Virus record (IMG/VR): IMGVR_UViG_3300031539_000009
Span: 18,157-82,156 of that record
Length of the DNA: 64,000 nucleotides
Source: a virus
Reading direction: 5' to 3' (one strand)
Shown: positions 1 to 17,494 of the stretch, piece by piece
Layout: each line of letters opens with the position of its first letter
How positions within the stretch are numbered: the first letter of the stretch is position 1
Program-made: the position numbers and the translations under genes
The notes under the pieces: generated by a model
What the model saw: only the letters and a program-made list of their open reading frames with translations
Told to the model about the DNA's origin: nothing
Databases searched by the model: none

Positions 1-243
1 CACCCTTTCCTTGAGCTTTCCGTGCGCTCTGAAAATAATCGTGCGATATGGTTTGCACTGTACTTTTTCGCCGGTCATCGGGTTGAGCGCCACTCGCTGC
101 TTGACCGACTTGATTCTGAAAGTGCCGAACCCCATCACCTTCACCTCACCGCCGTTGTCACAAATTTCGACGATGGCATCAAATACTTTATCCACATCCT
201 GCAAGCTCAACCCGCTTTTTTCTGCCACAGCCGCCCTTGACAT
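1..243 (-). CDS. HU/IHF-family DNA-binding protein, 3' part cut by window edge
   Basis: The first 81 codons of an open frame run from an ATG at 243 off the left edge. The translation has the HU/IHF layout: an N-terminal helical pair, then VKVMGFGTFRIK, then ALNPMTGEKV and PYRTIIFRAHGKLKE, matching the conserved GFGTF, NPxTGE and F.AGK.LK motifs of the family. HU proteins bend and coat DNA as dimers. A strong GGAGGT site lies about 8 bases before the ATG. It follows the polymerase gene by 53 bases and is probably the next gene of that operon, suggesting a role in compacting or replicating phage DNA. The C-terminal end is not in the window. Confidence 0.88.
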   Translation of the reverse strand, partial: MSRAAVAEKSGLSLQDVDKVFDAIVEICDNGGEVKVMGFGTFRIKSVKQRVALNPMTGEKVQCKPYRTIIFRAHGKLKERV

Positions 244-296
244 TTCTTATACCTCCATATGCTTATTTATTCCCCCTTTCGCCCCATTCCAATGAC

Positions 297-3200
297 TTAA
301 AAAGCCCGCCCGACATGGACCACGGCCTGTACGATATATGACTGTTTGTACTTGTCGCTTTTTTGTTTCTCAACTTGCATTATCACAATATCACCAGTGG
401 TCAACTTATCTTGATTTGGCTCATACAAATCGTTGAAGCAGAGCAACGAACCTACTGCGCCGCCGCCCGGACCCGTCAAGGTCAGAAAAGCCATCATGCC
501 ATTCTTGGCCTCATGCCGCTTGCAATCGGTCACCATTCCATATATCAACGCCTCAGCCCCGTGTGCTGTTTTGGCCAGCCGCTTGAACGGATTTGCCTTG
601 ACCAGTTTTTCACCTTTTTCCTTCCATTCCTCCACCAGCTGATCCCTTTCAGACGGTCCCAAATGTATGGCATCCCTGGCTTCCCTTTCCCCTTCCGACA
701 CCATCAAATCAACAGCAATGCGACTGTAACGCTCCAATGGGTCCTCAAAAAAGTACATCTCATATGGATTCAGGCCTGACCGCTCTGGCTTTCCTTCCGC
801 CGTCGCCGTCGCAATCTTGTTCTCAACATCGTCCAGATCAGCCATGAACTGTACACGCATCGTCTTGGACTTAGCAAACAACGACACCTTCATGGCCACG
901 CACGTCCCGATTCCCTTTTCAATAATGGGCCTGAACTCATCGAACTTATCAATGTCCAGCTTAATCCTCCAATGGACATGCGTCTCATCCTGGACGTTGA
1001 AATTGCTGTACCTCTTTTTCCAACCAATCCGGTCCTTTTCCGCCTGATCCGGCTCTGTGGTGTGGAAGTCACCGACCTGGTTGAAGCGGACATCGATGAT
1101 TTGCCCTCTGATGAACGCATCGCCACCATCCCAAGGCAATTGATCCAATGGGCTGAATTTGATGTGCGGACCGAACTGATCCAACAGGTCATCGTACAAC
1201 TCAACCGGATGCTTGTCCATTGGAAGCGGGCACACATCTATCGACATGCGCACCAGCATCTCTGGTGTGAAATCTTCTTCACTGGCCGACTGGGCCAGCA
1301 CCTTATCAACGCTGTCATATTCGTGTTTGTCGCAGTACTTCAGAAGTGTCTCGACATTCTCCAAAAAAAACTTGACGTTGGGAATCAAACCGGTGAACGC
1401 CCCGGCCTTGACTAACATCTCAACGGACCGCTTGTTCACATATGACTTTCCCACCCGCTTCCTGAAATTGCCGAATGAGGTGAACTCGCCATCCTTGTCC
1501 CGCTCCAACTCAATTTTTTCGATTCCCTTATTGGTCACCCACTTGATCTTATTCAAAGCAAATATGATCCGGCTCTTGCTATCTATCCTGAAGTGTTTGT
1601 TGCTGTGATTAATGTGGGGTTTGATAATCTCCACCCCCAGCCTTTCCGCTTCCTGTATAGTCCTGGCCGCTGTTTCTGAATCAGGCTCATGCTTGAGTAA
1701 AGCCCACATGAATTCCACAGGATAGTACACTTTGAGCCACATCTCCCAATAAGCAATGGCCGCATATGCGACTGCGTGCGATTTGTTAAAGCCATATGAA
1801 CCAAAGAATACAATGGAGTCAAACAGCTTCGCCGCCTTTCCCTTTTCCATCCCGATCTTGGCCGCCCCCTCCATGAATCGGTCCTTTTCCTTGGTTATGA
1901 CTTCCACGCCCGCCTTTTTGGCAATATCCTTCCTGAGTGAGTCAGCCGTTCCAGGCTCATATCCGCCGATCTGCTTAAAAATCTGAATGACCTGCTCCTG
2001 GTACACGATGACGCCATATGTCGGCCCGGTAATGGCATCATATGCTGGGTGTATTTTTTCCCACTTCGCCCCGTTTTTGCGCTCCACATACTTGGTCGCC
2101 AGACCGGACCTTGCTGTGCCCGGCCTGTTCAACGCATTCATGGCGGCCACGTCCTCAAATGAGTCAAATGTAATCGCTTCAGCCAGGTTGAACATCGATG
2201 TCGTGTCATACTGGAATATCCCAGCAAACTGTCTGTCTGTGAACGATTTGAACACCTTGTCATCGTCCATCGGCATCCCTTCCAGATCAATTTCCTTCCC
2301 GTGTCGCCGCTTAATTTCACCCAGACAGTCCCCGACCACGGACAGGTTGCGCAACCCCAAAACATCCAACTTGAGCAACCCAAAATCTGTGCACCCCCAA
2401 AAATCCACTGCTGTACAGGGTGTGACCGCCTTGTCTGTTTTCTGTACCTCCATCGGAACAATGGTGGACAGTTTCCTGGGTCCAATCACAACCCCGGCTG
2501 CGTGGACCCCTTTCTGGCGTGCCTGTCCTTCCAAAGACATCACCAGTGGCAATATTTCAGGGTGTCTGGCGTTAAACTCCTGGCACACCTTAAACTCTTT
2601 GAATGAATCCTGAACGGTCTGGCTGGCCCGCTCATCGCCGGATGACCTCTCAACAATGCTGTTGGTGACCTGCGCCACCTCATTCATGTGTATTTTATGG
2701 ACCCTGGAGACATCCCTCAGACATTGCTTCCCTTTCAATGTTCCCACGGTCCCGATCAATGAAGTGTTTTCCGCCCCATACCTATCAATCAAATAATCAA
2801 TGACTTCTTGGCGCCGAACGTCCTCAAAATCCATATCAATATCAGGCATGTCTATCCGGCCCGGACTCATGAACCTTTCAAACAACAATTCATGCTCCAC
2901 CGGGTCAACCGATGTGATGCCCAACAAGAATGACACCAAACATCCCGCCGCCGAACCACGACCAGGACCAACTACCATTTCCTGTTTCCGCACCCACTTG
3001 TAAAGATCATGGACAATCAGGAAATATCGCTCAAACTTGCTTCCCAAAATTGCCCTCATTTCCATTGACACCCGCTCTGAATATATCCTGATGGCATCCT
3101 CATAGCTGATGTGACGATTCCTGGCCAGTCGCCTGGCACGCTCTGGCACGTTGCGCCACGCCCAGCCATCCTTACACAACTGAAATATGTATTGCTTTTC

Positions 3201-4190
3201 CGTCAATCCGGCTGGCACCTCAACGTCCGGCAGAATACAGGCGAACTTGTCCAGCTTTAAGTCCACATTACAACGCTCAGATAGTTGGACGGAATTGTCC
3301 ATCATCTCGAACATGTCACCCTTTTCTATCCACGGGTGATATCTGCGGACTGCCCCCATCATTTCCTTGGGAGTGCGAAACCAAAAATCATGGGTGTCAA
3401 ATTTGAAACGATTGGGGTCATCTAAGGTCTGTTTGAATTGAAGGCACATCAGGACTTCTTGCTGCAACCAATCATCCGGCCTGAGATAATGAACATCATT
3501 GGTCAGGATGGGCTTGAACCCGAACTGCTTGGCCATTTTCAAGATATACTGATTGGACTCATCCTGGCCATCTATTTCGTTGGGCATCACCTCGCCATAC
3601 ACTCGATCAGGCCCAAAAATATCCAACAACTTTTTCAGGTGCCTGGCCGCTTTCCGGTGATCGCCCTCCAGGAATGGCTTGCTGAGTATTCCGCCAACGC
3701 ACGCCGTCCCGACCATTATGCCCTCTTGATGCTTTTCCAAAACTTCCCAATCAACTCTGGGCCTATTGCGATACAAGCCAGTGAGCCAACCTTCCGATGT
3801 CAGCTGGAATAGATTGCTCAATCCTGTTTCGTTCATGGCCCAAGCGCACAAATGCCATGTCTCGCTGATTCCCAATTCCCTTTCCCTGTCCTTCACCCAC
3901 TTGCGCCGCTGCCCTGAAGGAATGTCTTGCGCCAACGCTTTTTCCTCTTCAGGCAACGCTGTCTTGCGCCGGTCGCCGGTGACATACAGTTCACAACCAT
4001 AAACCGGCTTCACGCCCGCCCCTTTGGCTGCCTTGTGGAACCTGTAAACACCACGCATTGATCCGTGGTCGGTCATCGCCACCCTTTCGTGACCAGCTTC
4101 TTTGGCCCGCTCCATAAGATCGGTGACCCGGCCCACACCGTCTAACAGGCTGAACTCGGTGTGTAGGTGGGCATGGAAGTGATATGGCAT
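297..4190 (-). CDS. dnaE: DNA polymerase III alpha subunit (DnaE-type replicative polymerase)
   Basis: A 1297-residue C-family DNA polymerase, near the usual bacterial DnaE length. The N-terminus is a PHP domain (residues about 3-70, with HAHLHTEFS and MTDHGS). The polymerase core carries GPGRGSAAG at 408-416 and the catalytic PDIDMDF at 449-455, so D450 and D452 correspond to the metal-binding aspartates of E. coli DnaE. A KLDVLGLRNL segment supplies the expected third aspartate. Helix-hairpin-helix and OB-like C-terminal parts follow. It should extend DNA primers for the phage. The start is preceded by GAGAGG. It lies last but one in the operon with nucleotide-altering enzymes, so it may be adapted to unusual dNTPs (inference). 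Confidence 0.95.
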   Translation of the reverse strand: MPYHFHAHLHTEFSLLDGVGRVTDLMERAKEAGHERVAMTDHGSMRGVYRFHKAAKGAGVKPVYGCELYVTGDRRKTALPEEEKALAQDIPSGQRRKWVKDRERELGISETWHLCAWAMNETGLSNLFQLTSEGWLTGLYRNRPRVDWEVLEKHQEGIMVGTACVGGILSKPFLEGDHRKAARHLKKLLDIFGPDRVYGEVMPNEIDGQDESNQYILKMAKQFGFKPILTNDVHYLRPDDWLQQEVLMCLQFKQTLDDPNRFKFDTHDFWFRTPKEMMGAVRRYHPWIEKGDMFEMMDNSVQLSERCNVDLKLDKFACILPDVEVPAGLTEKQYIFQLCKDGWAWRNVPERARRLARNRHISYEDAIRIYSERVSMEMRAILGSKFERYFLIVHDLYKWVRKQEMVVGPGRGSAAGCLVSFLLGITSVDPVEHELLFERFMSPGRIDMPDIDMDFEDVRRQEVIDYLIDRYGAENTSLIGTVGTLKGKQCLRDVSRVHKIHMNEVAQVTNSIVERSSGDERASQTVQDSFKEFKVCQEFNARHPEILPLVMSLEGQARQKGVHAAGVVIGPRKLSTIVPMEVQKTDKAVTPCTAVDFWGCTDFGLLKLDVLGLRNLSVVGDCLGEIKRRHGKEIDLEGMPMDDDKVFKSFTDRQFAGIFQYDTTSMFNLAEAITFDSFEDVAAMNALNRPGTARSGLATKYVERKNGAKWEKIHPAYDAITGPTYGVIVYQEQVIQIFKQIGGYEPGTADSLRKDIAKKAGVEVITKEKDRFMEGAAKIGMEKGKAAKLFDSIVFFGSYGFNKSHAVAYAAIAYWEMWLKVYYPVEFMWALLKHEPDSETAARTIQEAERLGVEIIKPHINHSNKHFRIDSKSRIIFALNKIKWVTNKGIEKIELERDKDGEFTSFGNFRKRVGKSYVNKRSVEMLVKAGAFTGLIPNVKFFLENVETLLKYCDKHEYDSVDKVLAQSASEEDFTPEMLVRMSIDVCPLPMDKHPVELYDDLLDQFGPHIKFSPLDQLPWDGGDAFIRGQIIDVRFNQVGDFHTTEPDQAEKDRIGWKKRYSNFNVQDETHVHWRIKLDIDKFDEFRPIIEKGIGTCVAMKVSLFAKSKTMRVQFMADLDDVENKIATATAEGKPERSGLNPYEMYFFEDPLERYSRIAVDLMVSEGEREARDAIHLGPSERDQLVEEWKEKGEKLVKANPFKRLAKTAHGAEALIYGMVTDCKRHEAKNGMMAFLTLTGPGGGAVGSLLCFNDLYEPNQDKLTTGDIVIMQVEKQKSDKYKQSYIVQAVVHVGRAF

Positions 4191-4193
4191 TTT

Positions 4194-4676
4194 TTACCTC
4201 TCATCATTGGGCAATCTCGGAAAGTATTTCAAAACGTCCTTGAACGCTTTCAGACTATGGCCAAACAACTTAACTGATTGCCCCAGTTTCTGGGCTGCTT
4301 GGACGTCAAATGGGGTGAACAACGCATCCCTGATTTCAGTGTCCGTGAACCCATTTTCTGCATGTTTGTTTATATGGAATCCGATGACCTCTTTCAACTC
4401 AGCTGGATACGCACCATGAAGAATGTATATCAAATAGTTGATCCCCTCAGCCGTCCTGGCCAGGCGTGATACCAGCTTCCCCTTGTGCGGACCGAACTTC
4501 AACCTGGCATCCGGCAGACCGCCATCGTGCGGCAGAATAACTGTGTGCTGGTCGTGAAGATCAGCCTCAACCTGCGTTGCTTCCTGTTCCGCTTCCGTCT
4601 CAATCGTGGGCGCAATTCCATCCTGGGAATTCCCGCCCCTTTGAAACATTTCCCTGATTTTGTCTTTTGTGCTCAT
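4194..4676 (-). CDS. Small protein with an ExoX C-terminal/DUF3820-like motif
   Basis: 160 residues of unknown function. The middle holds LKFGPHKGKLVSRLA followed by a conserved-looking NYLIYILHG segment, similar to the short fGKYKGk...YL.Wl module found at the C-terminus of exodeoxyribonuclease X and in DUF3820 proteins; the resemblance is by eye. The N-terminal 45 residues are acidic and Q/E-rich. I chose ATG 4676 (MSTKDK), which has AGAGG about 8 bases upstream and overlaps the end of the kinase gene by 77 bases; an in-frame ATG at 4694 is less likely. A related motif occurs in the protein at 11275-11976. It stops 3 bases before the polymerase start. Confidence 0.6.
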   Translation of the reverse strand: MSTKDKIREMFQRGGNSQDGIAPTIETEAEQEATQVEADLHDQHTVILPHDGGLPDARLKFGPHKGKLVSRLARTAEGINYLIYILHGAYPAELKEVIGFHINKHAENGFTDTEIRDALFTPFDVQAAQKLGQSVKLFGHSLKAFKDVLKYFPRLPNDER

Positions 4677-5235
4677 CAATGAACCTCTTGGCAACCTCCA
4701 AAGTCACTGTTGGCCCATACCCGCTGGTGTCAATGCTCAACTTTGGAATTCGATTAACCATGCCACATGTCCGATCTAATTGGGTGGCCACATGCCACCA
4801 ATCTTTTTCATCCTCCAACGGGAATTTTTCATGCTTGCAACGCTTCTTTGAATCCTCATAGCAACAGCCCAAATACAAGTACACGACCGGACCGCCGCCC
4901 TGCAAAAGACTTTCCTGCCAAACATCCATCCACGACTTTATCCGTGGATCATTTTCATCAAATTCACCGTACAACGAACCATAAGCAATCGCTGAGGGCA
5001 AGGACCGATCCAAAATCACATTCCTTCCAACCTGCCCCAGCACCTCTGCCACGAGAACATCCTCAATGTAACTATTCACAGGAATGCCAATTTGGCGCAT
5101 CCCTTCCACAATCTCGTTGAAATTCCGTCCGGCCCGCCGGAATGATCGGAACACAGGCCAACGTGTCCGCCTTTCCAGCTGCTCGCAAAGACTTGTCTTG
5201 CCCGATCCATTGATGCCCTCAGCAATTACTATCAT
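4600..5235 (-). CDS. P-loop nucleotide kinase, thymidylate-kinase-like
   Basis: 211 residues. A Walker A motif GINGSGKTS is at residues 7-15, and NVILDRSLPSAIAYGSLYGE supplies the DR.-type lid/substrate motif of thymidylate and deoxynucleoside kinases. The fold should transfer a phosphate from ATP to a nucleotide or nucleoside. The natural substrate cannot be read from sequence. In this operon it could be dTMP, dUMP, a 5-substituted dUMP, or (as in some hypermodifying phages) a hydroxymethyl group on DNA. The C-terminal 26 residues overlap the next gene. Start ATG 5235 has GGGGGAAG upstream. Family confidence is good and substrate confidence is low. Confidence 0.82.
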   Translation of the reverse strand: MIVIAEGINGSGKTSLCEQLERRTRWPVFRSFRRAGRNFNEIVEGMRQIGIPVNSYIEDVLVAEVLGQVGRNVILDRSLPSAIAYGSLYGEFDENDPRIKSWMDVWQESLLQGGGPVVYLYLGCCYEDSKKRCKHEKFPLEDEKDWWHVATQLDRTCGMVNRIPKLSIDTSGYGPTVTLEVAKRFIDEHKRQNQGNVSKGREFPGWNCAHD

Positions 5236-5248
5236 GGCCGCTTCCCCC

Positions 5249-6436
5249 TTATTTCAGGAAGCTGTTGTGGGTGTCCAGGATTGCTTTCAGGCCATCCTGC
5301 AACTCCAACGGTGATATGTTGAGCGGTGGGGTGATCTTGATCTGTCCCTTTGGTCTGAACGTGGCGATGAGCAGACCGAACTCCCTGGCCCGCTCTGCGA
5401 ACTGATAACCATCATATCCAAAGCTGTCGAACCTTGGCAAAATTCCCCAGTGGACTCCCACGCCATCGATGGTCTCAATCCAATCCTGGGCTGTGAAAAA
5501 ATCCTCCATGATTTTGCTTGTGTCTCGAATGTGCTGCAGCCCGCCGTCCTCAAGCCAATCCAATAAAATCAAATTGGCCTCACAAACAAACGGACCGCCG
5601 CCGAATGTGGTGTAATGCGTCCTGGGCGCCAACGTCCCGGAACACTTGGGAGTGGCCAAACAAGCTGACATCGGATAACCCAACGCAATTCCTTTTCCCA
5701 AGGTCAAAACATCAGGTTGAATCCCAAAATATTCCCCGGCTGTGTACGTCCCGGTCCTGCCCATCCCCACCTGGACCTCATCGAATATGAGCAAGATGTC
5801 ATGGGTGTCGCAGAATTCACGGACCTCTTTCAACAGCCCTTCCCGATGCAGACGAACCTCATTGTTGCCCGATATGGGCGACATGAAAATGGCAGCCACG
5901 TCACCAGGCACCAGGTCGCTCAATTCCTTGAAGAATGTGAACCCGGTTGGCATCGGTCCAAATCCTTCTTTGTGATATGGTGAATCCCTGGAATCCGTCG
6001 CCGCCAAAGACCAACCGGTGCGACCTGCAAACTGCCCCTCAATCGAAGCAATTATGCACTTGTCATTCCCTTTGTCGTGCTGATATTTGCGGGCCAGCTT
6101 GATGGCTGTCTCGTTGGCTTCCGTCCCGGAATTAGCAAAAAACACCTTGTCCATTCCCGTGACTCGGCACAACCTTTCTGCGCACTCCCATCTGGTAGGG
6201 TGCGGCAGCATGTCTGCCAGCTGGTGCGGCTTTCCGGCTTCAAGGAAATTGGTCAGCCGATTTATGACCATCTGATTGCCATACCCCAACGATATTGTCC
6301 CGACATCAGCGCACATGTCAATGAATTCATGGCCATCCTCTGTGTATAGTTTGGCCCCTTCCCCGCCACCGATCACCAATGGCAACCGATTTATGGTGGG
6401 CATCAGGTGCCCGTCCATTTGCCTTTCATCCATCAT
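5249..6436 (-). CDS. Class III PLP-dependent aminotransferase (acetylornithine/ornithine aminotransferase-like)
   Basis: 395 residues, normal for the family. Visible motifs, numbered from the ATG at 6436: NSGTEANE near 102-109, FDEVQVGMGRTG near 218-229, the Schiff-base lysine in LTLGKGIALGYP near 248, and THYTTFGGGPF near 273-283. Two deviations stand out: FGGGP replaces the usual FGGNP, and SPISGNNE replaces the E-P-x-x-G motif. It should move an amino group between an amine/amino acid and a keto acid or aldehyde. The start overlaps the ThyX-like stop as ATGA, with GGGGGTG upstream. A phage gains little from ornithine metabolism alone, so a role in building an aminated base is plausible (inference). 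Confidence 0.9.
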   Translation of the reverse strand: MMDERQMDGHLMPTINRLPLVIGGGEGAKLYTEDGHEFIDMCADVGTISLGYGNQMVINRLTNFLEAGKPHQLADMLPHPTRWECAERLCRVTGMDKVFFANSGTEANETAIKLARKYQHDKGNDKCIIASIEGQFAGRTGWSLAATDSRDSPYHKEGFGPMPTGFTFFKELSDLVPGDVAAIFMSPISGNNEVRLHREGLLKEVREFCDTHDILLIFDEVQVGMGRTGTYTAGEYFGIQPDVLTLGKGIALGYPMSACLATPKCSGTLAPRTHYTTFGGGPFVCEANLILLDWLEDGGLQHIRDTSKIMEDFFTAQDWIETIDGVGVHWGILPRFDSFGYDGYQFAERAREFGLLIATFRPKGQIKITPPLNISPLELQDGLKAILDTHNSFLK

Positions 6437-7380
6437 CTCACTTTCACCCCCGTCCAAGGATCACGCCCCCAATATTCACGATATTCACCCACACGCTGCT
6501 TGCCCATGGGGTTGTAATCCCGCTCCACTTCAGCCGGATCAAGACCGGCCACCAATTTGGCGTACATCGGGCAAACTGGCAAAGCATCCTCACCCGTCAC
6601 ACGCCTTTCATTTTCGTGCTCGAATTTGCAGCCGCCGAACTCTTCATTGCAGATGCACGGTGGCGTGGCCATTTCTGAGAATATCGGGTGAACCTTGGTG
6701 GCGCACTCTTTGATCATCCCCCGGATAACCGGCCCCCACAACCCCAGCTGAAGTATCCAACACGACCTTTTGCCCACGATATGGAGCATGCTGTTGACGT
6801 TCATCGTCCAACTGATCCGGTGCTGCGCCCCCAACGGAATCAGGTCACGGGCATCTTCCATAGGCACGCCCGCTTCCACCAGCCTGTTGTACATATCCTG
6901 AATCCTCTTCATGGTGTCGCCATATTCACGATACAGGTCAGGCCTGGTCTTGCCTAACTGGCGGATGGTGTTGGCCTTGCGATACATTCCCTGGTCTGCG
7001 AACGTCCCCATGTTCTGAATCCGCATCGACTGGCTCCAATAGCTGGAACTGACCAAATCAGGAATGAGGTCAACTCCGATGCGGTCATCATGCTTGTGCC
7101 CGACTCGGTGACGGACCGCTTGCTCACGCCAACTGACGCTCACGCCCTCCATCATGAAGTTGAAATAAATGGACTCACTGACCGGAATGTTCTGGGCCAC
7201 GACCTTCCTGAACAATTCCAGCAACCCATCGTCACCCATGGGGTCATCCGGGTCACGCTTCCCGGCCTTCACTTCATCCACCGTCAACAGCGGATTTTCA
7301 GACTTGCTTGCCCACCAGATTATGTACAGTGTCTCCAGCGGGTCATTTGTGTTACTGATCAATCTCACCCTTGGTTCCAT
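6433..7380 (-). CDS. Divergent ThyX-like flavin-dependent thymidylate synthase homologue
   Basis: 315 residues. The overall ThyX plan is visible: EGVSVSWREQAVRHR ending in the diagnostic RHR at 90-92, then SSYWSQSMRI at 112-121 where canonical ThyX has SxNExSxRY, then DARDLIPLGAQHRISWTMN with VNSMLH at 195-200, matching the nucleotide-binding NARSL.HF region. The RHR and serine motifs are separated by about 20 residues instead of being adjacent, and the upstream H.S..EH motif reads VSESIYF. The C-terminus adds Cys at 226, 242, 244, 251 and 270, absent from ordinary ThyX. It may methylate dUMP, or use the flavin/folate chemistry to put another one-carbon group on C5. Start has GGAGGT upstream. 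Confidence 0.8.
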   Translation of the reverse strand: MEPRVRLISNTNDPLETLYIIWWASKSENPLLTVDEVKAGKRDPDDPMGDDGLLELFRKVVAQNIPVSESIYFNFMMEGVSVSWREQAVRHRVGHKHDDRIGVDLIPDLVSSSYWSQSMRIQNMGTFADQGMYRKANTIRQLGKTRPDLYREYGDTMKRIQDMYNRLVEAGVPMEDARDLIPLGAQHRISWTMNVNSMLHIVGKRSCWILQLGLWGPVIRGMIKECATKVHPIFSEMATPPCICNEEFGGCKFEHENERRVTGEDALPVCPMYAKLVAGLDPAEVERDYNPMGKQRVGEYREYWGRDPWTGVKVR

Positions 7381-7401
7381 TTTGATACCTCCATTTGATT
7401 A

Positions 7402-8295
7402 TTACAGGCCAAGCCTGTTCAAGACTTCGCCCCAGTTTGTGACCGGCTCCAAACAATCGTGCGGTGCTAAATTGTCTGAAATCGGACTCTTGAAATACAA
7501 CACCTTTATTCCGTCCCCGGCCAAGTCCAACGCATGCTTTGGGTCATCCTCGATGAATCCCACGACCTTAGCAGGGTGGATGTTTTCCCAGACTGCCCCG
7601 GACTTGTCCCTGGACCACAGCACCTGATCCGGCTTGATCCCATGTTTGTCCAACCAGAAGTGGGTGTCTGTGGCAATCCTGCGCACTTTCCAATATGGCC
7701 TGGCCGTTATCACCACCAACTTGTTTCCTGCCTCTTTGATGGCTCGGAGTGCTCCAACCGCCCCGTCAATCAGCCCTGTTTCTCTGAATCGCCCCTCTTG
7801 ATAAAATGCCATCACAGCCACTTCCCGATCTGCCTGGGACAACTCTTTGTATCCTTTTCCGGCCCGTCCCAAACAAAACATGTCAAATTGGGCAAAAAAA
7901 TCGGCCACCACTCCATCCAGGTCAGTGACCACAACCGGTGTCGATTCCTTCAACTCCATCAATTCAGCTTGCCAACGCTGATCGACCAGGTTTGACTTCT
8001 CAAAAAATGCCATCAAGAATTGCTTGTGGGTGATCCCTATGGCCTGGGCAATCGCCATGGTGTATTTGAACACGTCTGCGCACTGGTCCAAGGCATTCCC
8101 ATCGATGTCCGGGCACGCCTTCAATTGATGGTGTTTCGGTATCAATTCCCGCTTCAATTCAGTGACCTCTTCAAACAGGCCCAAAAGCAGGTCGGATAGC
8201 AGCCTGTGCCGCTCTGCTTCCGTCATGGAATCCGGGTTGATCCCTAACTTTTTTTGTTGCTCCGCTTGCCTTGCCCAAACTTTACCAAATTCCAT
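7402..8295 (-). CDS. Fusion of all-alpha dUTPase/MazG-like NTP pyrophosphohydrolase and HAD 5'-nucleotidase
   Basis: 297 residues from ATG 8295, which has GGAAGGTGG upstream; an earlier in-frame ATG at 8367 would lie deep inside the previous gene. The N-terminal half has the EE..E pattern at 42-46 and DQCAD at 70-74 of all-alpha NTP pyrophosphatases. The C-terminal half is a HAD domain of the deoxyribonucleotidase (NT5C) type: VVVTDLDGVVADF with the nucleophile near D125, VVITARP as motif II and GFIEDDP as the acidic motif. Together they could turn a dNTP into a dNMP and then a nucleoside, shaping the pyrimidine pool (e.g. removing dUTP or dTTP). Substrates are inferred. Overlaps the upstream gene by 14 bases. 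Confidence 0.82.
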   Translation of the reverse strand: MEFGKVWARQAEQQKKLGINPDSMTEAERHRLLSDLLLGLFEEVTELKRELIPKHHQLKACPDIDGNALDQCADVFKYTMAIAQAIGITHKQFLMAFFEKSNLVDQRWQAELMELKESTPVVVTDLDGVVADFFAQFDMFCLGRAGKGYKELSQADREVAVMAFYQEGRFRETGLIDGAVGALRAIKEAGNKLVVITARPYWKVRRIATDTHFWLDKHGIKPDQVLWSRDKSGAVWENIHPAKVVGFIEDDPKHALDLAGDGIKVLYFKSPISDNLAPHDCLEPVTNWGEVLNRLGL

Positions 8296-9238
8296 CACAC
8301 CACCTTCCGACCTTTTCTGCCACAACGTCTGTTGTTTCCCTTGAGTCCCAAGCAGCATATCTGCCAATGGGAATCACGCCTTCAGGATATTCCAGCCCCT
8401 CATCGCAACCGATGATATGACCCTTGATCCTTCCCTGTTTACTTATTCTCATTCCAATGCCAAGGACATGAATCACATCTTTGGCAACCGCTTCCGACTG
8501 GTCACTGTCGTCAACCCCATGAGGTTGTGGCACTTCAGCCCAAAACGATCTTTGTTGCAAGTTGTAGCTGATCCTGGACACCACTTTCTGCGCTGGTGTG
8601 TAAATGTAATCCGGCCCGGCCCACTTCTGATTCCCATTCCACGTCACCTCATACAAGGCAATATTCCCGTTGCGCAGATCAGGAAAGTCAAGACCGCCGA
8701 TGGCGGCAAAAACGCTGGCGTGAGCCGATGTAAATAACATGTCATAATTGAAATTGCCAGATTTTGTTTTTATGGCATGCTCTGTGTGATCGACTTCCAC
8801 AACCATGTCGGTACACAACCTGACCCCTTCAAGTGCTGCCTTGCTCAATTCTGATGGATTTATAACCATAGACTTGGAATGGTCTTTGCCAGGATCATTC
8901 ATACACTTGGCAGTCCAGCCATCTAATGTCCCCCTGGTCTTGGCATAGTGCATCCGTTGAATCTTCTCAGCACGGTCCCGGACCCGGCCCATCATTTCTG
9001 GATATGGCAATATTTTCCCGGCCCAATATATTCCGCCGTGAATTTCCTTGAAATCAACATTGACTCCGTGATGGCACAAAGTTGCCAGGAAGTGCCTGGA
9101 CCAATGAAAGTATTTCAGCCCGCCTTTGAAAAAATCGCCGGTGTCAGGACCGATGGCCGTGACCTGGTGTCCGAACCTCTTCAAAACCAATGATGCCACC
9201 TGGCCACTCACACCCGTCCCGATTATTACGCAATTCAT
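8282..9238 (-). CDS. FAD/NAD(P)-binding oxidoreductase of unknown substrate
   Basis: 318 residues. The N-terminus is a Rossmann fold: MNCVIIGTGVSGQVAS with the GxGxxG at 7-12, followed by a GGLKYFHW segment of the kind seen where FAD-dependent amine oxidases and UDP-galactopyranose mutase-like enzymes contact the flavin. A TSAHASVFAAIGG stretch follows near the middle. The C-terminal PIGRYAAWDSRETTDV resembles the final FAD-contact strand. FAD-dependent enzymes occur in known thymidine-hypermodification clusters, but the exact subfamily is not recognisable by eye. First gene of the left-hand operon, behind the regulatory region 9239-9363; AAGGAAAG precedes the ATG. Confidence 0.72.
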   Translation of the reverse strand: MNCVIIGTGVSGQVASLVLKRFGHQVTAIGPDTGDFFKGGLKYFHWSRHFLATLCHHGVNVDFKEIHGGIYWAGKILPYPEMMGRVRDRAEKIQRMHYAKTRGTLDGWTAKCMNDPGKDHSKSMVINPSELSKAALEGVRLCTDMVVEVDHTEHAIKTKSGNFNYDMLFTSAHASVFAAIGGLDFPDLRNGNIALYEVTWNGNQKWAGPDYIYTPAQKVVSRISYNLQQRSFWAEVPQPHGVDDSDQSEAVAKDVIHVLGIGMRISKQGRIKGHIIGCDEGLEYPEGVIPIGRYAAWDSRETTDVVAEKVGRWCDGIW

Positions 9239-9363
9239 GTGTGCTTTCCTTGCATTCTATTTTGCATGTATGAATTCAACCTTTTCAAACCCTTATGCAC
9301 TAACAACTGCATTCATTTTTTGCGCATTTTTGAATGCATTCCTTACTGCAAAAACGTGTGTGT
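9239..9363 (-). promoter_or_regulatory. TGCA-rich upstream regulatory region, copy A of a 67-bp repeat
   Basis: A 125-bp non-coding stretch upstream of the FAD-enzyme gene and just after a terminator, so it must hold that operon's promoter. Positions 9270-9336 match 19948-20014 without gaps at 56 of 67 positions. The segment is full of ATGCA/TGCAT words. No convincing -35/-10 pair could be assigned. I infer operator or phage-specific promoter sites. Confidence 0.6.
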
Positions 9364-9407
9364 AAAAAGGGCCAGCACCCTGGTGTTGATCCTGGATGCT
9401 GGCCCTT
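9364..9407 (-). terminator. Rho-independent terminator
   Basis: On the minus strand an 11-bp perfect stem (arms 9407-9397 and 9377-9367, AAGGGCCAGCA/TGCTGGCCCTT) with a 19-base loop is followed directly by a run of T. It lies 25 bases after the stop of the gene ending at 9432 and separates the two transcription units. Confidence 0.9.
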
Positions 9408-9431
9408 GTCATCATTCACAGGTTGTCCAGC

Positions 9432-12441: not shown

Positions 12442-14478
12442 TTAGGCCATGAGGTATTTTATGATCATCTTGAAAAGCTTGGCCGGAAGATCACCCACGC
12501 TGTTGACCACGTCCCAGTCAGGGTAAAAATTCCGCACGTGATCGGTCTGAATTCCCAGCCCATAAACCTCGATGCCCGCATCAGATATTTCCTTGACCAC
12601 GTCCCTGGTGGCCTGATACTGCTTGTAATTGTCCCCAATGCTGACGTTGGGCTTTCCGTCGCTGAGGACTATCATGATCTTGCGGTGCTGGGGTTGAGCC
12701 GCCAGCCGCTTTGCCGTGTGCATGATCGCTTCTGAATCAACGTTGCAGCCGTTGGTGTCCATCATCGCAATCCTGGTCTTCACAGTGGCATTGAACTTTT
12801 CCCCGAACGCCTTGTGGGTGTAGTGGGTGATCCCAACAAATCTGTTGTAATATTTCATTTCCTCTTTGGGCTCATCCCACGCACTATATCCGGCCCGATA
12901 AGTGTGATGTCCGCAAATCTCGAAAGGAATGTTCAGGCCATTCAACGCTTCCGCAATCGCTATCATCCCGACCTTGGCGTGTCCAATCCTGTTATCACGA
13001 CCGCTCATGGACCCGCTCTGGTCAACCAGGATGCTCACGGCCACGTCCAACTTCTGTCCTGGCATCGTCTTGGTGAACACTCTTTTGTTTCCGGTCTTGG
13101 TGCTGTAAAGTGTGGAAGGATCAATTTGACCATTTTCCTGGTCGCCCACCCGGACCGCCTGAGCCTTGACCTTGAGCAGCGTGGTGAGTCTGGCCTTGAG
13201 TGCTCCGGTGGCCTTTCCCGCTTCCGTTTTGAGTCTGCTGTAGTGGTCCAGGGCTGCGCTGTCTGATGAGGTGTGGGTGCGAACGTCCCACTTGTCCCGG
13301 TCCAAAACCTTGGGTGAGGGGATGTGATCGTTGCTGCGCTTGGCCAACTCCATCGCCTTGGTCTTCAGTTCATCTTTGATCTTCTGCTTGAGATCGGTCT
13401 CAGTGGGCTTGGGCTGCTCTTTTTCCGCTTGCTCCAAGATGTCCAGTGCTTCCTGAGTGGCCTGGGGCATCCCATTCCCGCTGGCACCGCTCTCATCGCT
13501 GTTGGGATTTGAGGTGAAATCTTCATCGGTCCCCTTCCCCTTGCCGCTTCCGTCCTGGTCGCCGCCCATATCATCGCCATCGTGCTCTGCGGACAATCCG
13601 GCATCAACACCCTGGTCGCCGTCCTGCTCCTGCTCGGTGTCCTGCTCGGTGTCCTGGTCGCCGTCCTGGTCGCCGTCCTGGTCCTGGTCGCCGTCCTGGT
13701 CCGCTTCCCCTTTGCCGTCCTGGTCCTGGTCGCCGTCCTGGTCCTGGTCGCCGTCCTGGTCCTGGTCGCCGTCCTGGCCTTGTTCGTCTTGCTCGGTGTT
13801 TCCCTGTTCCTTGTCGCCCTGCTCCTGGTCGCCGCTTCCCTGATTCTGCCCCAACTCATCCTTGGCATCACTCAGTCTGCCCAAGATGTCAGTGACCAGC
13901 TGGTCAACGTCCGCCGGTGCCTCAACGGTTTTGGCCCGCTCTATTTCCGGCTGAATTTTGTCCAAGATCAGGTTGTATGACTCAGGAAGCCAGGAAGTGG
14001 ATCTGCCGGTGGCCCGGAAGGAAAGCCCAATGGCGATGATGTAGTTGGGGTTGGCCTGTCCTGGATTGGCGCTTAATTCTTTGACCAAATCGCTGGTGAG
14101 CCTATCATTCATGGTGTCCAGGTTGGTGGCCACTCCCGGATAACGTGCGCTGAGGCTGCGCTCTATTCTGGTGTCCTCGATGGCGTTGAAAAACACTTTG
14201 TATTTGGGGGTGGCCGCTCTCATGTAGTCTAATGGGGTGCGCTGTCCCTGGGCTTTCCAAATTTCCTCTTGCTCGATGTGGCCCCACTCGTGATCCAACA
14301 GACCTTCCATGACCGCCTGATCCGCCCCTTTGAACTTGTCTGCGTTGGCAGGAAGGTAGATGGTGGCCCCGTCAGTGGCGCAATTCAGCGTCTGGGTGTT
14401 GACGTGGACCGTGGCCCGCTTGCTGAACGTCCGGGCGATTTTTTCCCACTTGCTTTCCATGGTTCTTTTTGCTTTCAT
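12442..14478 (-). CDS. CobT-like VWA-domain protein with HEWGH metal motif
   Basis: 678 residues from ATG 14478 (MKAKRT), which has AAAGGGGAC upstream; earlier in-frame ATGs lie inside or at the promoter. Near residues 63-67 is HEWGH, a zinc-type HExxH motif, with FNAIEDTRIERSL downstream, as in CobT-type peptidase-like domains. Residues about 210-330 are an acidic low-complexity block of GDQDQD repeats. The C-terminal 230 residues are a von Willebrand A domain with the MIDAS motif DQSGSMSGRDN. CobT/CobS-like pairs occur in large phages and are probably MoxR/VWA chaperone systems, not cobalamin enzymes. The partner ATPase is the gene just upstream. Confidence 0.85.
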   Translation of the reverse strand: MKAKRTMESKWEKIARTFSKRATVHVNTQTLNCATDGATIYLPANADKFKGADQAVMEGLLDHEWGHIEQEEIWKAQGQRTPLDYMRAATPKYKVFFNAIEDTRIERSLSARYPGVATNLDTMNDRLTSDLVKELSANPGQANPNYIIAIGLSFRATGRSTSWLPESYNLILDKIQPEIERAKTVEAPADVDQLVTDILGRLSDAKDELGQNQGSGDQEQGDKEQGNTEQDEQGQDGDQDQDGDQDQDGDQDQDGKGEADQDGDQDQDGDQDGDQDTEQDTEQEQDGDQGVDAGLSAEHDGDDMGGDQDGSGKGKGTDEDFTSNPNSDESGASGNGMPQATQEALDILEQAEKEQPKPTETDLKQKIKDELKTKAMELAKRSNDHIPSPKVLDRDKWDVRTHTSSDSAALDHYSRLKTEAGKATGALKARLTTLLKVKAQAVRVGDQENGQIDPSTLYSTKTGNKRVFTKTMPGQKLDVAVSILVDQSGSMSGRDNRIGHAKVGMIAIAEALNGLNIPFEICGHHTYRAGYSAWDEPKEEMKYYNRFVGITHYTHKAFGEKFNATVKTRIAMMDTNGCNVDSEAIMHTAKRLAAQPQHRKIMIVLSDGKPNVSIGDNYKQYQATRDVVKEISDAGIEVYGLGIQTDHVRNFYPDWDVVNSVGDLPAKLFKMIIKYLMA

Positions 14479-14518
14479 TTTCGTGTCCCCTTTTGTGTTT
14501 TTTCCGGCCATGTTTAAT

Positions 14519-14547
14519 ATCATAGCTGATCTTGAATGAAAAGGCAA
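14519..14547 (-). promoter_or_regulatory. Promoter P1 (sigma70-like) for the VWA gene
   Basis: Minus-strand TTGCCT (14547-14542), 17-bp spacer, TATGAT (14524-14519). A T-tract (UP-like) lies directly upstream. Same -35 and spacing as P2 and P3. Predicted start is about 30 bases before the chosen ATG at 14478. Confidence 0.75.
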
Positions 14548-14640
14548 GAAAAAAAACACCCAAGGTCCAAACTTTTTTTACAATATCCATAAATCCAACA
14601 AGTTACAAGACAACTTTTTTTTGGTGTAGCCCGGTCTTTT
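14523..14640 (-). repeat. 118-bp promoter repeat, copy 1
   Basis: Aligns without gaps to 15968-16085 at about 100 of 118 positions and includes P1. It carries two A-rich blocks (ACCAAAAAAAAGTTG and TTGTAAAAAAAGTTTGG on the minus strand). Differences between copies are spread over all codon positions, so the conservation is at DNA level, not a peptide. Likely a duplicated promoter with upstream activating tracts. Confidence 0.8.
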
Positions 14641-14728
14641 AATAGGCCAAAACGTCGAAAGGACCAAAAACCACTTAACTTGTTGATTTTACTTAACATT
14701 TTCAATTCCCCATAAAATCAAGGACTTA

Positions 14729-14744
14729 GGGTGCTTTAGCACCC
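14729..14744 (-). other. Hairpin spanning the stop codon of the AAA+ gene
   Basis: Perfect 6-bp stem GGGTGC/GCACCC with loop TAAA; the UAA stop (14738-14736) overlaps the loop. No T-run follows, so it is not a clear terminator; it may protect the mRNA end or slow readthrough. Confidence 0.55.
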
Positions 14745-15914
14745 CATGATCCTCTGGATAACTCCATCCACGAACATCGCATCATCCTTGGACATCCGGT
14801 CCAAGATGGTGATCCTGGCGGCCAGGCGGATGTTGTTCAGCTTGATAGCTTTCCCGGCCCACTCGATCAGTCTGCGGGTTGAGCAGGTGCAATAACACTG
14901 CTCTTGTTCAAATGCTCCCCGAATGGCCTGGGCAACTTCAACCATCTTCTGGGCCATGCTATGATCGGCCCCGGTCTTGGACTTGACAATTTTGATCTCA
15001 ATGGACTTTTCAACATAATCGGCCTTGAGGACCACTCCGAACCTGTCCAGATATGCTTCATTGAGGACGTTGGTGCCGGTGTACAGGCCGGTGTCGTCGC
15101 CCCTTCCGATGGTGTTTGCGGTGGCCACAACCCGGAAATTGGGGTGTGGTTCTATGACTTCACCGTTGTTCCCGGTGAGAGTGAGCTTGCCGCCACGCTC
15201 CAGGACCGCCTGAAGGACAAAAAGGATATGGGGTTGAGCAGCGTCCATCTCGTCAAGCAACAGCCAATATCCTTTGCGCATCGCTTCCGGCAGCACGCCA
15301 TCCTTCCAGACCACAACGCTGTTTCCATTCTCATCCACGTCCAACACTTTTTCGCCGGTGAAATCAGCTGCCCGGATGTCGCCGTTGAGATTGACTCTGC
15401 GGACCGGCTGGTTGAGAATGCTGGCCAACTCCAGGAAAGCAGCCGACTTGCCGCAGCCCGTGGGTCCATGAACCAGCGTGTTGTCGCCCTCTTCAATTCC
15501 AACCGCCAAGACCGTGAAAACATCCATGTCAAGCTGATAATTTTCATCGTGGTCCGGGATGTATTTTTTGTCCGCTTCTGTTACATCCTTTCTGACGTAC
15601 AGGCTGGCCGGTCCGATCTGAAGTGGTGCGTCTGGGTTGAATCCGTTGTGATCGCCGTTGGCGCCGTCCTGAACTTCTGGCTGCTGAATAAGGTCGGTGG
15701 CGACCTTGGTGCGCTTGACACCCTTTTGGGCCTGGCTGACCCGCTGGCTTGCGTATTCTGATATGGTTGGTTCACCCGGATGCCTGAGGTTGTACTCGGC
15801 AACGTCGATTCCGTGGGCTGATTTAAGATGTACGCTGAGTTGGTGGTAATAACGTCCGCACTCTTTGCACTCAATTTTCACATTACCATTCTTGTCGATT
15901 TGTTTGAAGCTCAT
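14736..15914 (-). CDS. MoxR/CobS-like AAA+ ATPase with N-terminal C2H2 zinc finger
   Basis: 392 residues from ATG 15914 (MSFKQIDK), preceded by GGGAAGCGAA. The N-terminus has CKECGRYYHQLSVHLKSAHG (Cys 16 and 19, His 29 and 34), a Ros/MucR-type zinc finger also typical of phage CobS-like proteins. The ATPase domain has Walker A HGPTGCGKSA, Walker B LLLDEMDAAQP and a sensor region RVVATANTIGRGDDTG. AAA+ ATPases of this class remodel or load metal/cofactor centres together with VWA partners; the VWA gene follows directly. Target is unknown. Transcribed from P2 and/or P3. Confidence 0.9.
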   Translation of the reverse strand: MSFKQIDKNGNVKIECKECGRYYHQLSVHLKSAHGIDVAEYNLRHPGEPTISEYASQRVSQAQKGVKRTKVATDLIQQPEVQDGANGDHNGFNPDAPLQIGPASLYVRKDVTEADKKYIPDHDENYQLDMDVFTVLAVGIEEGDNTLVHGPTGCGKSAAFLELASILNQPVRRVNLNGDIRAADFTGEKVLDVDENGNSVVVWKDGVLPEAMRKGYWLLLDEMDAAQPHILFVLQAVLERGGKLTLTGNNGEVIEPHPNFRVVATANTIGRGDDTGLYTGTNVLNEAYLDRFGVVLKADYVEKSIEIKIVKSKTGADHSMAQKMVEVAQAIRGAFEQEQCYCTCSTRRLIEWAGKAIKLNNIRLAARITILDRMSKDDAMFVDGVIQRIMGC

Positions 15915-15963
15915 TTCGCTTCCCACTTTTGATTTGTATTTGGTTTTTTCGACCATGTATACA

Positions 15964-15992
15964 AGTATAGCTGATCTTGAATGGAAAGGCAA
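15964..15992 (-). promoter_or_regulatory. Promoter P2 (sigma70-like) for the AAA+ gene
   Basis: Minus-strand TTGCCT (15992-15987), 17-bp spacer, TATACT (15969-15964), T-tract upstream. Nearly identical to P1 through the spacer. Confidence 0.78.
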
Positions 15993-16085
15993 GAAAAAAA
16001 TCGCCCAAGGACCAAACTTTTTTTACAAGATCCATAAAAACAATCATTTACTGGGCAACTTTTTTTTGGTGTAGACCGGCTTTTC
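15968..16085 (-). repeat. 118-bp promoter repeat, copy 2
   Basis: Partner of 14523-14640, ungapped, about 85% identical by eye, containing P2. Part of the 436-bp gene-free region 15915-16350, which otherwise holds P3, the terminator 16304-16330 and an AT-rich stretch 16086-16270 in which I see no gene. Confidence 0.8.
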
Positions 16086-16272
16086 AAAAAGGCAAAAGGT
16101 AAAAAGGGCCAAAATTGGCTTCCGGTGTGGATAGGTAGTGGGGTTTGTTTTTTGTGTCTAAACAGAATATTGCCGAATGGCTTGAAATTAAATACTTTTT
16201 TGTGAAAATTTGGTGTCATTATCACCGATTCCTTTTGATTATTGTCGGCCCGATTATGCGGACCAATTTTAC

Positions 16273-16301
16273 ATTATAACCTAAAATCAGCGACAAGGCA
16301 A
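16273..16301 (-). promoter_or_regulatory. Promoter P3 (sigma70-like), perfect -10
   Basis: Minus-strand TTGCCT (16301-16296), 17-bp spacer, TATAAT (16278-16273). It starts directly after the terminator 16304-16330, and its upstream T-tract is that terminator's tail. It would give a transcript with a leader of about 350 bases before the AAA+ gene. Confidence 0.82.
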
Positions 16302-16303
16302 GG

Positions 16304-16330
16304 AAAAAATTACACCTCACAATGAAGTGT
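16304..16330 (-). terminator. Rho-independent terminator after the primase gene
   Basis: Minus-strand stem ACACTTCA/TGAGGTGT (8 bp, one G-T wobble, 3-base loop) followed by AATTTTTT. It lies 20 bases after the primase stop and ends the replication unit. Confidence 0.75.
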
Positions 16331-16350
16331 GGAAGGAATGTGGCCTGATG

Positions 16351-17343
16351 CTACAAATTTTTTAAGGTGTCGGTGATATAATCCAACTCAGCCGTCGCCG
16401 CCGGACGTGATTTCAACATGCATGCCTGTGCCTCTTTGCGACTCAAATCAGCCGGGTCACGGCCAGCCGGAAGCTCAATCAACTCAATCTCGAATAACGC
16501 CCCCAATGCTTTCGACACCTCCAACGATTTTTTATATGCGTCATCGTCCAACATGATCCTGACCTTTTCAATCCTGCTATCCAGAAGCAATGCCAATTGC
16601 CCGTCGCCCAAGGACTTCCCAAACAGCGCAATGGCATCAATTCCTGCCTGCCACAACTTCATAACGTCAAATGCGCCCTCGACCAAGGTGATCATATCAC
16701 TCTCACGACAATGGTCATAATTGAATAGCAAGTGGCTGAAGGACGCATCCGGTGGATTGAGATATTTTTTGTTAGATGTCCCGGTGACATCTCTGGCAAT
16801 AAAAGATCGGACCCCAGCGCAATGTACAGGTACAATCACACGCCCACCATAGCGTCCACCCTGGCACAACCCTAGTTTGAACCTCATCGCCGTCTTGACT
16901 TCAATTCCCCGGTCTTTGAGATAGATTGGCATGGCCGCCTTCATGGTCCGCTTATTGAATATGGGCTTGTATTGTTTCGGAAGGTCATGGCTGATAATCT
17001 CAGGATCAGGAATCACTCGGACCGCTGCGGTGTCAATCGCCCGTTTCAGGGCATCCAGGTCAGTGTCGGTCCCAAAAATCCTGACCCGCTCCCTGACAAT
17101 GCGCATCGCCGTCGCCCGGTCGCACGCCTCCACAGCCATAATGAATTGTAGCCCGTTGCACCCCCAATCGCACTTCCAGCACTTCCCCCTCTGCTTGGCC
17201 ACGCTGAAATCAAAGTGCTCCTGGTCCCCGCAATTGGGGCAATCCACGTTGAATTCCTTGTCGCTGGACATGTGCTTTCGATTGTTGACCGGGATGTTCC
17301 GCTCAATGTAATCTTCAAAGTCAAATCGAATTCTCAACGCCAT
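16351..17343 (-). CDS. DnaG-like primase
   Basis: 330 residues from ATG 17343. A zinc-binding domain is at the N-terminus (CPNC at 35-38, CWKC at 55-58), followed by a linker and a Toprim domain with LVEGAFDVMKL (catalytic Glu) and MLDDDAYKK (DxD). It makes RNA primers for the phage replisome with the helicase just upstream. It is shorter than E. coli DnaG because it lacks the helicase-interaction C-terminus. A GTG at 17367 is an alternative start; neither has a strong ribosome site (AGGA sits only 2 bases from the ATG), so the start is uncertain. Confidence 0.9.
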   Translation of the reverse strand: MALRIRFDFEDYIERNIPVNNRKHMSSDKEFNVDCPNCGDQEHFDFSVAKQRGKCWKCDWGCNGLQFIMAVEACDRATAMRIVRERVRIFGTDTDLDALKRAIDTAAVRVIPDPEIISHDLPKQYKPIFNKRTMKAAMPIYLKDRGIEVKTAMRFKLGLCQGGRYGGRVIVPVHCAGVRSFIARDVTGTSNKKYLNPPDASFSHLLFNYDHCRESDMITLVEGAFDVMKLWQAGIDAIALFGKSLGDGQLALLLDSRIEKVRIMLDDDAYKKSLEVSKALGALFEIELIELPAGRDPADLSRKEAQACMLKSRPAATAELDYITDTLKNL

Positions 17344-17494
17344 GTCCTCGCATGTATTTCGCCGCACATGTTGGCACGTTGTAAAATCCCATTACCTAAC
17401 ACACGCTGCATACGTCGATGCATGCAAATTTCCGCTGTTTCTGTCTGCAAAAACGTATGCATGTTTTGAGCATTTACCCGTGCATGTTGGCATG
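17344..17494 (-). promoter_or_regulatory. Intergenic region with repeated TGCCAACATG and ATGCATACG-type words
   Basis: Between the helicase stop and the primase start. The 10-mer catgttggca occurs exactly at 17367-17376 and 17483-17492. Between them are several TGCAT/ATGCA words, including gctgcatacg and acgtatgcatg. Similar words occur at 9239-9363 and 19923-20031. Could be an operator set or an iteron-like origin; no clear promoter was assigned. Confidence 0.5.

Follow-up and report, generated by a model that had tools for sequence, protein, structure and literature searches.

What does a phage make with a flavin adenine dinucleotide (FAD) oxidoreductase, a nucleotide-degrading fusion enzyme, a relative of the thymidylate synthase ThyX, an aminotransferase and a nucleotide kinase, all encoded in a row beside its replicative DNA polymerase? 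The question is raised by bases 18157-82156 (64,000 nucleotides, here called the window) of the 82,156-base virus record IMGVR_UViG_3300031539_000009. Our answer is that this cassette probably makes a C5-modified pyrimidine at the nucleotide level for use in DNA, where both the chemistry and the DNA destination are inferred. The five open reading frames (ORFs) lie on the minus strand as a single unit, with successive gaps of -86, 21, -25 and 13 nucleotides:

8282..9238, minus strand: FAD-dependent oxidoreductase of amine-oxidase fold, first in the unit (motifs, AlphaFold 2 (AF2) model, Foldseek)
7402..8367, minus strand: MazG-like pyrophosphohydrolase domain fused to an NT5C-type haloacid dehalogenase (HAD) 5'(3')-deoxyribonucleotidase (Pfam, structure profiles)
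6433..7380, minus strand: divergent ThyX, of the flavin-dependent thymidylate synthase family (Thy1, TIGR02170, alignment)
5249..6457, minus strand: class-III pyridoxal phosphate (PLP) aminotransferase of the acetylornithine aminotransferase (AcOAT) type (Aminotran_3, AcOAT profiles)
4600..5235, minus strand: thymidylate kinase (TMK)/deoxynucleoside kinase (dNK)-like P-loop protein, probably a nucleotide kinase (phrog_761, TMK/dNK structures)

The original prediction, a five-enzyme pyrimidine hypermodification operon followed by DnaE and an HU-like protein, named the unit and its order correctly, as it did the FAD oxidoreductase, the ThyX-like protein, the acetylornithine-type PLP enzyme and the P-loop kinase. 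Structure-based homology searches matched the FAD enzyme, the fusion, the aminotransferase and the kinase to families of solved structure. In what had been called a dUTPase-HAD fusion, the HAD part stands and the dUTPase part is better described as MazG-like. As for hypermodification itself, a co-inherited pyrimidine-nucleotide pathway next to DnaE is supported, and modification of the DNA is its conditional part.

Sought in other viruses, the gene set recurs. A ThyX search returned 43 viral loci, with no member of the subfamily confirmed in bacterial genomes, and about 20 distinct viral contigs carry the five genes linked to DnaE; their ThyX proteins are mostly 43-52% identical to the window's, and less so in the outermost contigs. 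DnaE adjoins the cassette in nearly all relatives, and most DnaE-linked loci hold all five genes, with ThyX and the aminotransferase accounting for most of the changes in order. A DnaE-anchored search, run independently of the cassette genes, yielded further full copies (L080, L093, L094 and L099) as well as eight same-lineage contigs whose DnaE is 54-58% identical to that of a cassette virus. Near DnaE in these eight there is no fusion, ThyX, aminotransferase or kinase; the AAA and VWA genes that lie upstream of the cassette are common to them where in range. A record-wide search of seven block-lacking records, which may be incomplete, found neither aminotransferase nor fusion, and detected both in two cassette controls. 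On a FastTree DnaE tree, the block-lacking viruses form two clades apart from each other, each neighbouring a virus with the cassette, so that at least two losses of the block (or repeated gains) are needed. Their FAD homolog has lost GGLKY in all eight cases and GxGxxG as well in six, and two of the eight encode a ThyX at some other place, which in one virus passes as ordinary under the curated model. This loss as a block, together with the decay of the FAD motifs, is the best sequence evidence that the genes function together.

The ThyX-like protein is a family member of non-standard type. It passes the Thy1 model (PF02511; 69.4 bits, cutoff 24.8) and fails the equivalog TIGR02170 (56 bits, cutoff 87.9), on which six tested window-type members score 45-60 bits and four ordinary ThyX proteins 96-181. 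The signature RHRX7S is absent from all 35 subfamily members, the window's protein having RHRX25S: in every one an insert of about 18 residues separates RHR from the dUMP (deoxyuridine monophosphate)-binding Ser. The QxE of ordinary ThyX is QxG in the window type. RHR, S118, R120 and R205 are retained (35/35), so that fold family, FAD-binding RHR and dUMP-binding Ser/Arg are shared with ordinary ThyX; the dUMP-binding roles of these Ser/Arg residues have been described (PMC6514825). Cysteines at the C-terminus were considered as a special feature and given no weight, since similar ones occur in other phage and in archaeal ThyX proteins.

For the FAD protein, Pfam returned only Rossmann-type matches, all below cutoff. 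Its AF2 model (predicted local distance difference test, pLDDT, 89.7) retrieves L-amino-acid oxidase (LAAO), monoamine oxidase (MAO), renalase and protoporphyrinogen oxidase with Foldseek, and the predicted fold thus matches the FAD amine-oxidase superfamily. The motifs GxGxxG and GR[YF]AxW are present, and homologs occur in about 20 cassette viruses; a kindred family is present in 120 records of cultured actinophages. The C-terminus of the fusion passes Pfam NT5C (1.4e-7; 32.1 bits, cutoff 24.8) and matches the structure of cytosolic 5'(3')-deoxyribonucleotidase (cdN) by profile at 8.7e-8, with the catalytic Asp pair D149/D151 kept in 18 of 18 sequences; the N-terminus matches the MazG-type structure 2q73 at 1.1e-4. 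Translation of the fusion probably starts at an internal ATG near 8295.

The aminotransferase scores 226 bits with Aminotran_3 and 352 bits by profile with AcOAT structures, acetylornithine aminotransferase being the closest type, and falls short of the ArgD model TIGR00707 (267 bits, cutoff 410). Its PLP site is intact (lysine K255 and D226 kept 19/19), and its true start is probably the ATG near 6436. Matches in the phage collection appear to be mostly host genes and were set aside as not being relatives. Class-III aminotransferases turn aldehydes into amines. The kinase matches phrog_761 (3e-19) and TMK/dNK structures, keeps G12 K13 and D76 R77 S81 in 19 of 19 sequences, and fails the dTMP (thymidine monophosphate)-kinase model TIGR00041 (30.9 bits, cutoff 83.25). 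That the P-loop protein is related to mononucleotide kinases points to modification before replication.

From these parts we tentatively draw a route to an aminated thymine analogue that is built on the mononucleotide, begun by the ThyX-family enzyme and finished by the class-III aminotransferase, with a kinase of its own and a fused enzyme to remove the natural nucleotide; the cassette would then be one branch of a wider ThyX-centred viral family of pyrimidine modification. The dUMP would come from a deoxycytidine monophosphate (dCMP) deaminase whose gene lies in another part of the record. The ThyX-like enzyme would place a one-carbon unit on C5 through its conserved dUMP pocket and stop at an exocyclic-methylene or hydroxymethyl state, short of methyl. 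Since acid trapping of ThyX intermediates yields hydroxymethyl-dUMP (PMC4913046), release of such a state by a ThyX is plausible on chemical grounds. The FAD oxidase-fold enzyme could convert C5-CH2X to the aldehyde, or else act as a partner of ThyX, and the aminotransferase would replace the aldehyde at C5 by an amine, so that 5-aminomethyl-dUMP or something closely similar is formed. The TMK-like kinase would make the diphosphate and a host kinase the triphosphate for incorporation by the linked DnaE, with the MazG-nucleotidase fusion degrading competing dTTP (thymidine triphosphate), dUTP and dTMP. That the product carries an amine at C5 is itself a tentative proposal.

The alternative that survives best, unlikely as we consider it, is an ordinary supply of dTTP, in which dCMP deaminase, MazG/dUTPase activity, ThyX and TMK do their usual work, and the aminotransferase and FAD enzyme serve folate, flavin or nitrogen metabolism. 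Every step would have a candidate, and ThyA (PF00303) is absent from the window's record, as foreseen by the claim that a ThyX-type enzyme takes its place. A single ThyX is found in 11 of 12 cassette records (the window's and 11 relatives), which also fits; however, the twelfth, G011 (loci L008/L083), has next to a dCMP deaminase, about 20 kilobases (kb) from its cassette ThyX, an ordinary second ThyX that passes TIGR02170 (109 bits, cutoff 87.9). Together with the failed cutoff and missing RHRX7S of the cassette protein, this makes plain dTMP supply unlikely; by its sequence, the cassette ThyX is unlikely to be an ordinary dTMP synthase. Moreover, the relatives of ThyX, TMK and ArgD all fall under the curated cutoffs, a deoxyribonucleotidase would waste dTMP, and dTTP supply hardly explains why the aminotransferase is lost in a block with ThyX while the FAD motifs decay.

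We consider it improbable that the pyrimidine is instead finished on the DNA, with the P-loop protein phosphorylating 5-hydroxymethyldeoxyuridine (5-hmdU) in the polymer and the PLP and FAD enzymes acting there too. We characterised the known phage pathways from the cited papers and from the genes of PaMx11, in which the marker families of the DNA-level route were identified. In M6, ViI and phiW-14, 5-hmdU is incorporated into DNA, where a DNA kinase phosphorylates it before further modification (PMC6449724). M6/PaMx11 and Salmonella ViI make 5-(2-aminoethyl)deoxyuridine (5-NedU), 5-aminomethyldeoxyuridine (5-NmdU)/N-glycyl-T and 5-(2-aminoethoxy)methyldeoxyuridine (5-NeOmdU), and so share with our proposal an aminated thymine as product class. 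They also share a thymidylate-synthase-family enzyme, a deoxynucleoside monophosphate (dNMP) nucleotidase, a dCMP deaminase and an FAD oxidoreductase, so that PaMx11 resembles the cassette in outline. However, their synthase is of the ThyA type, and a 5-hmdU DNA kinase and an amino acid:DNA transferase act on DNA. Neither the transferase (PF18724) nor the DNA kinase (PF18723) occurs in any of the 12 records, both being found in the PaMx11 positive control, and the cassette kinase is TMK/dNK-like. The PaMx11 FAD enzyme is of the DAO family, unlike the window's, and we rejected the window's protein as a homolog of PaMx11 gp47 because the two align over the Rossmann motif only. The close kinship to ViI, M6, SP10 and phiW-14 that had been proposed is therefore not borne out. 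The absence of both marker families and the TMK/dNK-like kinase favour modification at the nucleotide stage, which is the mode reported for SP-15.

SP-15, a Bacillus phage of the genus Thornevirus with dihydroxypentyluracil (DHPU) in its DNA, resembles the cassette in using Thy1/ThyX rather than ThyA and in its dCMP deaminase. It has two Thy1 proteins (PMC5977210), and according to Walker and Mandel 1978, as cited in that paper, its modified base is made as the nucleoside triphosphate. Listeria phage LIS04, placed in the same genus, encodes the best cultured relative of the window's ThyX, in the place of SP-15 gene 130; on a ThyX tree, the window-type sequences, second paralogs and LIS04 group at 100/96, subject to long-branch caveats. 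SP-15 differs in having sugar/teichoic-type tailoring genes and a short-chain dehydrogenase/reductase (SDR), and no class-III aminotransferase was seen in the regions read. Kindred gene sets in culture are found in actinophages: in Dclasvirinae and relatives (Butterscotch, Hawkeye, P3.1, NorManre, Gibson), FAD oxidoreductase, NT5C, DnaE and a long ThyX are clustered, and Tedro has a reduced FAD-ThyX-DnaE set in which NT5C and SDR are not annotated. Their FAD oxidoreductase matches that of the cassette at a profile E of about 1e-8, with a global profile alignment of 98%. The actinophage set differs in its FabG-like SDR, in a cluster annotation that lists neither aminotransferase nor TMK, and in a ThyX without the 18-residue insert; here the SDR would interconvert aldehyde and alcohol instead. 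The literature searched gave nothing on the DNA chemistry of these actinophages. In its logic the cassette comes closest, among known systems, to SP-15; among cultured phages, the actinophages have the nearest gene sets.

We likewise give little credence to a free modified nucleoside or nucleotide, serving as host-metabolism inhibitor, anti-defence decoy or chain terminator and not as a DNA building block. Class-III aminotransferases and ThyX homologs do occur in nucleoside natural-product pathways, and incorporation into DNA is a deduction on our part; the tight linkage to a replicative polymerase in about 20 viruses, the kindred actinophage set and the nucleotide kinase in the cassette argue against it. 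Unrelated auxiliary metabolic genes that became neighbours by chance, such as an arginine-type aminotransferase beside dTMP genes, are very improbable even with an aminotransferase that is recognisably AcOAT-like, given repeated co-inheritance and co-loss with constant membership under shifting order; the recurrence is far beyond chance, and the unit appears to be no chance neighbourhood.

Several observations weigh against C5 modification at the nucleotide level as set out here. All cassette carriers are metagenomic contigs. Locus L099 has the other cassette genes, and its ThyX shows the ordinary motif and passes TIGR02170 (96.4 bits, cutoff 87.9); FAD-ThyX pairs exist without an aminotransferase, leaving the order of steps uncertain. 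The nucleotidase could have another dNMP as substrate. Loss of the lid tyrosine, tried as a sign of new chemistry, is also seen in the ThyX proteins of Vibrio VA-RY-3 and Pbunavirus, and direct homology of the window's ThyX to SP-15 gp130 is not detectable (5.6 bits).

A nucleotide-level cassette of this kind would be one variant among several. The same ThyX subfamily occurs in 16 further loci, most beside PolA, ten of which have a radical S-adenosylmethionine (SAM)/SPASM enzyme and many a YfbR-like deoxynucleotidase and a nucleoside deoxyribosyltransferase. In L045, an SDR lies directly upstream of ThyX, as in SP-15 genes 129-130. Five loci (L030, L033, L042, L046 and L047) carry a second unusual ThyX family (VHRHxSFFSESHQ) no more than a few kb from the window-type ThyX; the single member that was tested likewise misses the thymidylate synthase cutoff. 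A NADAR-domain protein adjoins the radical SAM and ThyX genes in L042, L046 and L047. With its run of FAD enzyme, fusion, SDR, aminotransferase, kinase, DnaE and ordinary-motif ThyX, L099 appears to bridge the window-type cassette and the actinophage set. Across related clusters an SDR or radical SAM enzyme replaces, or accompanies, the aminotransferase, as expected if the tailoring of one C5 handle varies. Where FAD-ThyX clusters have no aminotransferase, SAM methyltransferase genes turn up repeatedly, namely in L103 (3488-4084), L060 (NorManre 77) and L061 (Butterscotch 62), which suggests further tailoring. Among 50,697 phage records the FAD enzyme and kinase had no match and ThyX reached 26% identity at best, and the nucleotide-level combination of ThyX and aminotransferase was found neither there nor in the literature searched. 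This combination is what is new here; base replacement by phages is already known. 5-NmdU itself is reportedly a phage base, to go by the title of Wen et al. 2024 (cited in PMC11946847), made by another route.

The record that carries the cassette is that of a contractile-tailed phage, with terminase, portal, tape measure, baseplate wedge, RecA, UvsW-like helicase and DnaE. The cassette is flanked by the following features:

9350..9425, minus strand: Rho-independent-type terminator of the upstream gene (-35.7 kcal/mol, z = -6.84, U-tract)
4194..4694, minus strand: small protein between kinase and DnaE (no family above cutoff)
297..4190, minus strand: DnaE-type DNA polymerase III alpha, the downstream partner (Pfam/PHROG)
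1..246, minus strand: HU/IHF-like DNA-binding protein (translation; stop codon just beyond the window edge)

The strong terminator hairpin sets the cassette apart from the preceding gene. This half of the proposed promoter-and-terminator opening stands; the promoter-like match at 9288-9259 on the minus strand (9/12) is a weak consensus match and not promoter evidence. The small protein has weak homologs at the equivalent place in several relatives. In five DnaE proteins (L003 at 13092-17804, L006, L008, L013 and L027), intein-like inserts of about 280-330 residues occupy one site, before SYGFNKSHA, with a Cys start in 4 of 5 and a His-Asn end in all; the window's DnaE has no insert, residue 797 marking the empty site. 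The dCMP deaminase gene lies about 15 kb past DnaE, and such a gene is present in 7 of the 12 cassette records. Upstream of the cassette are genes for a CobT-like VWA protein (window 12442-14559) and a MoxR/CbbQ-like AAA ATPase (14736-15992), a pair kept there in most type I relatives and also in several viruses that lack the cassette. A match to a DNA methyltransferase family (phrog_1530) lies within the structural region (window about 23000-63812), and no defence-system families were found.

If the proposed pathway is right, phage thymine modification can begin from ThyX rather than ThyA and finish before replication, which would extend the known chemistry. It would also offer a way into the DHPU pathway of SP-15, an open problem since the 1970s, and would imply that the label 'ThyX-like thymidylate synthase' is mistaken for some genes of cultured actinophages. 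The cultured actinophages with the kindred set, which can be grown on laboratory hosts, provide a practical test bed, and an aminated thymine in DNA would be useful for resistance to restriction enzymes and as a biotechnological handle.

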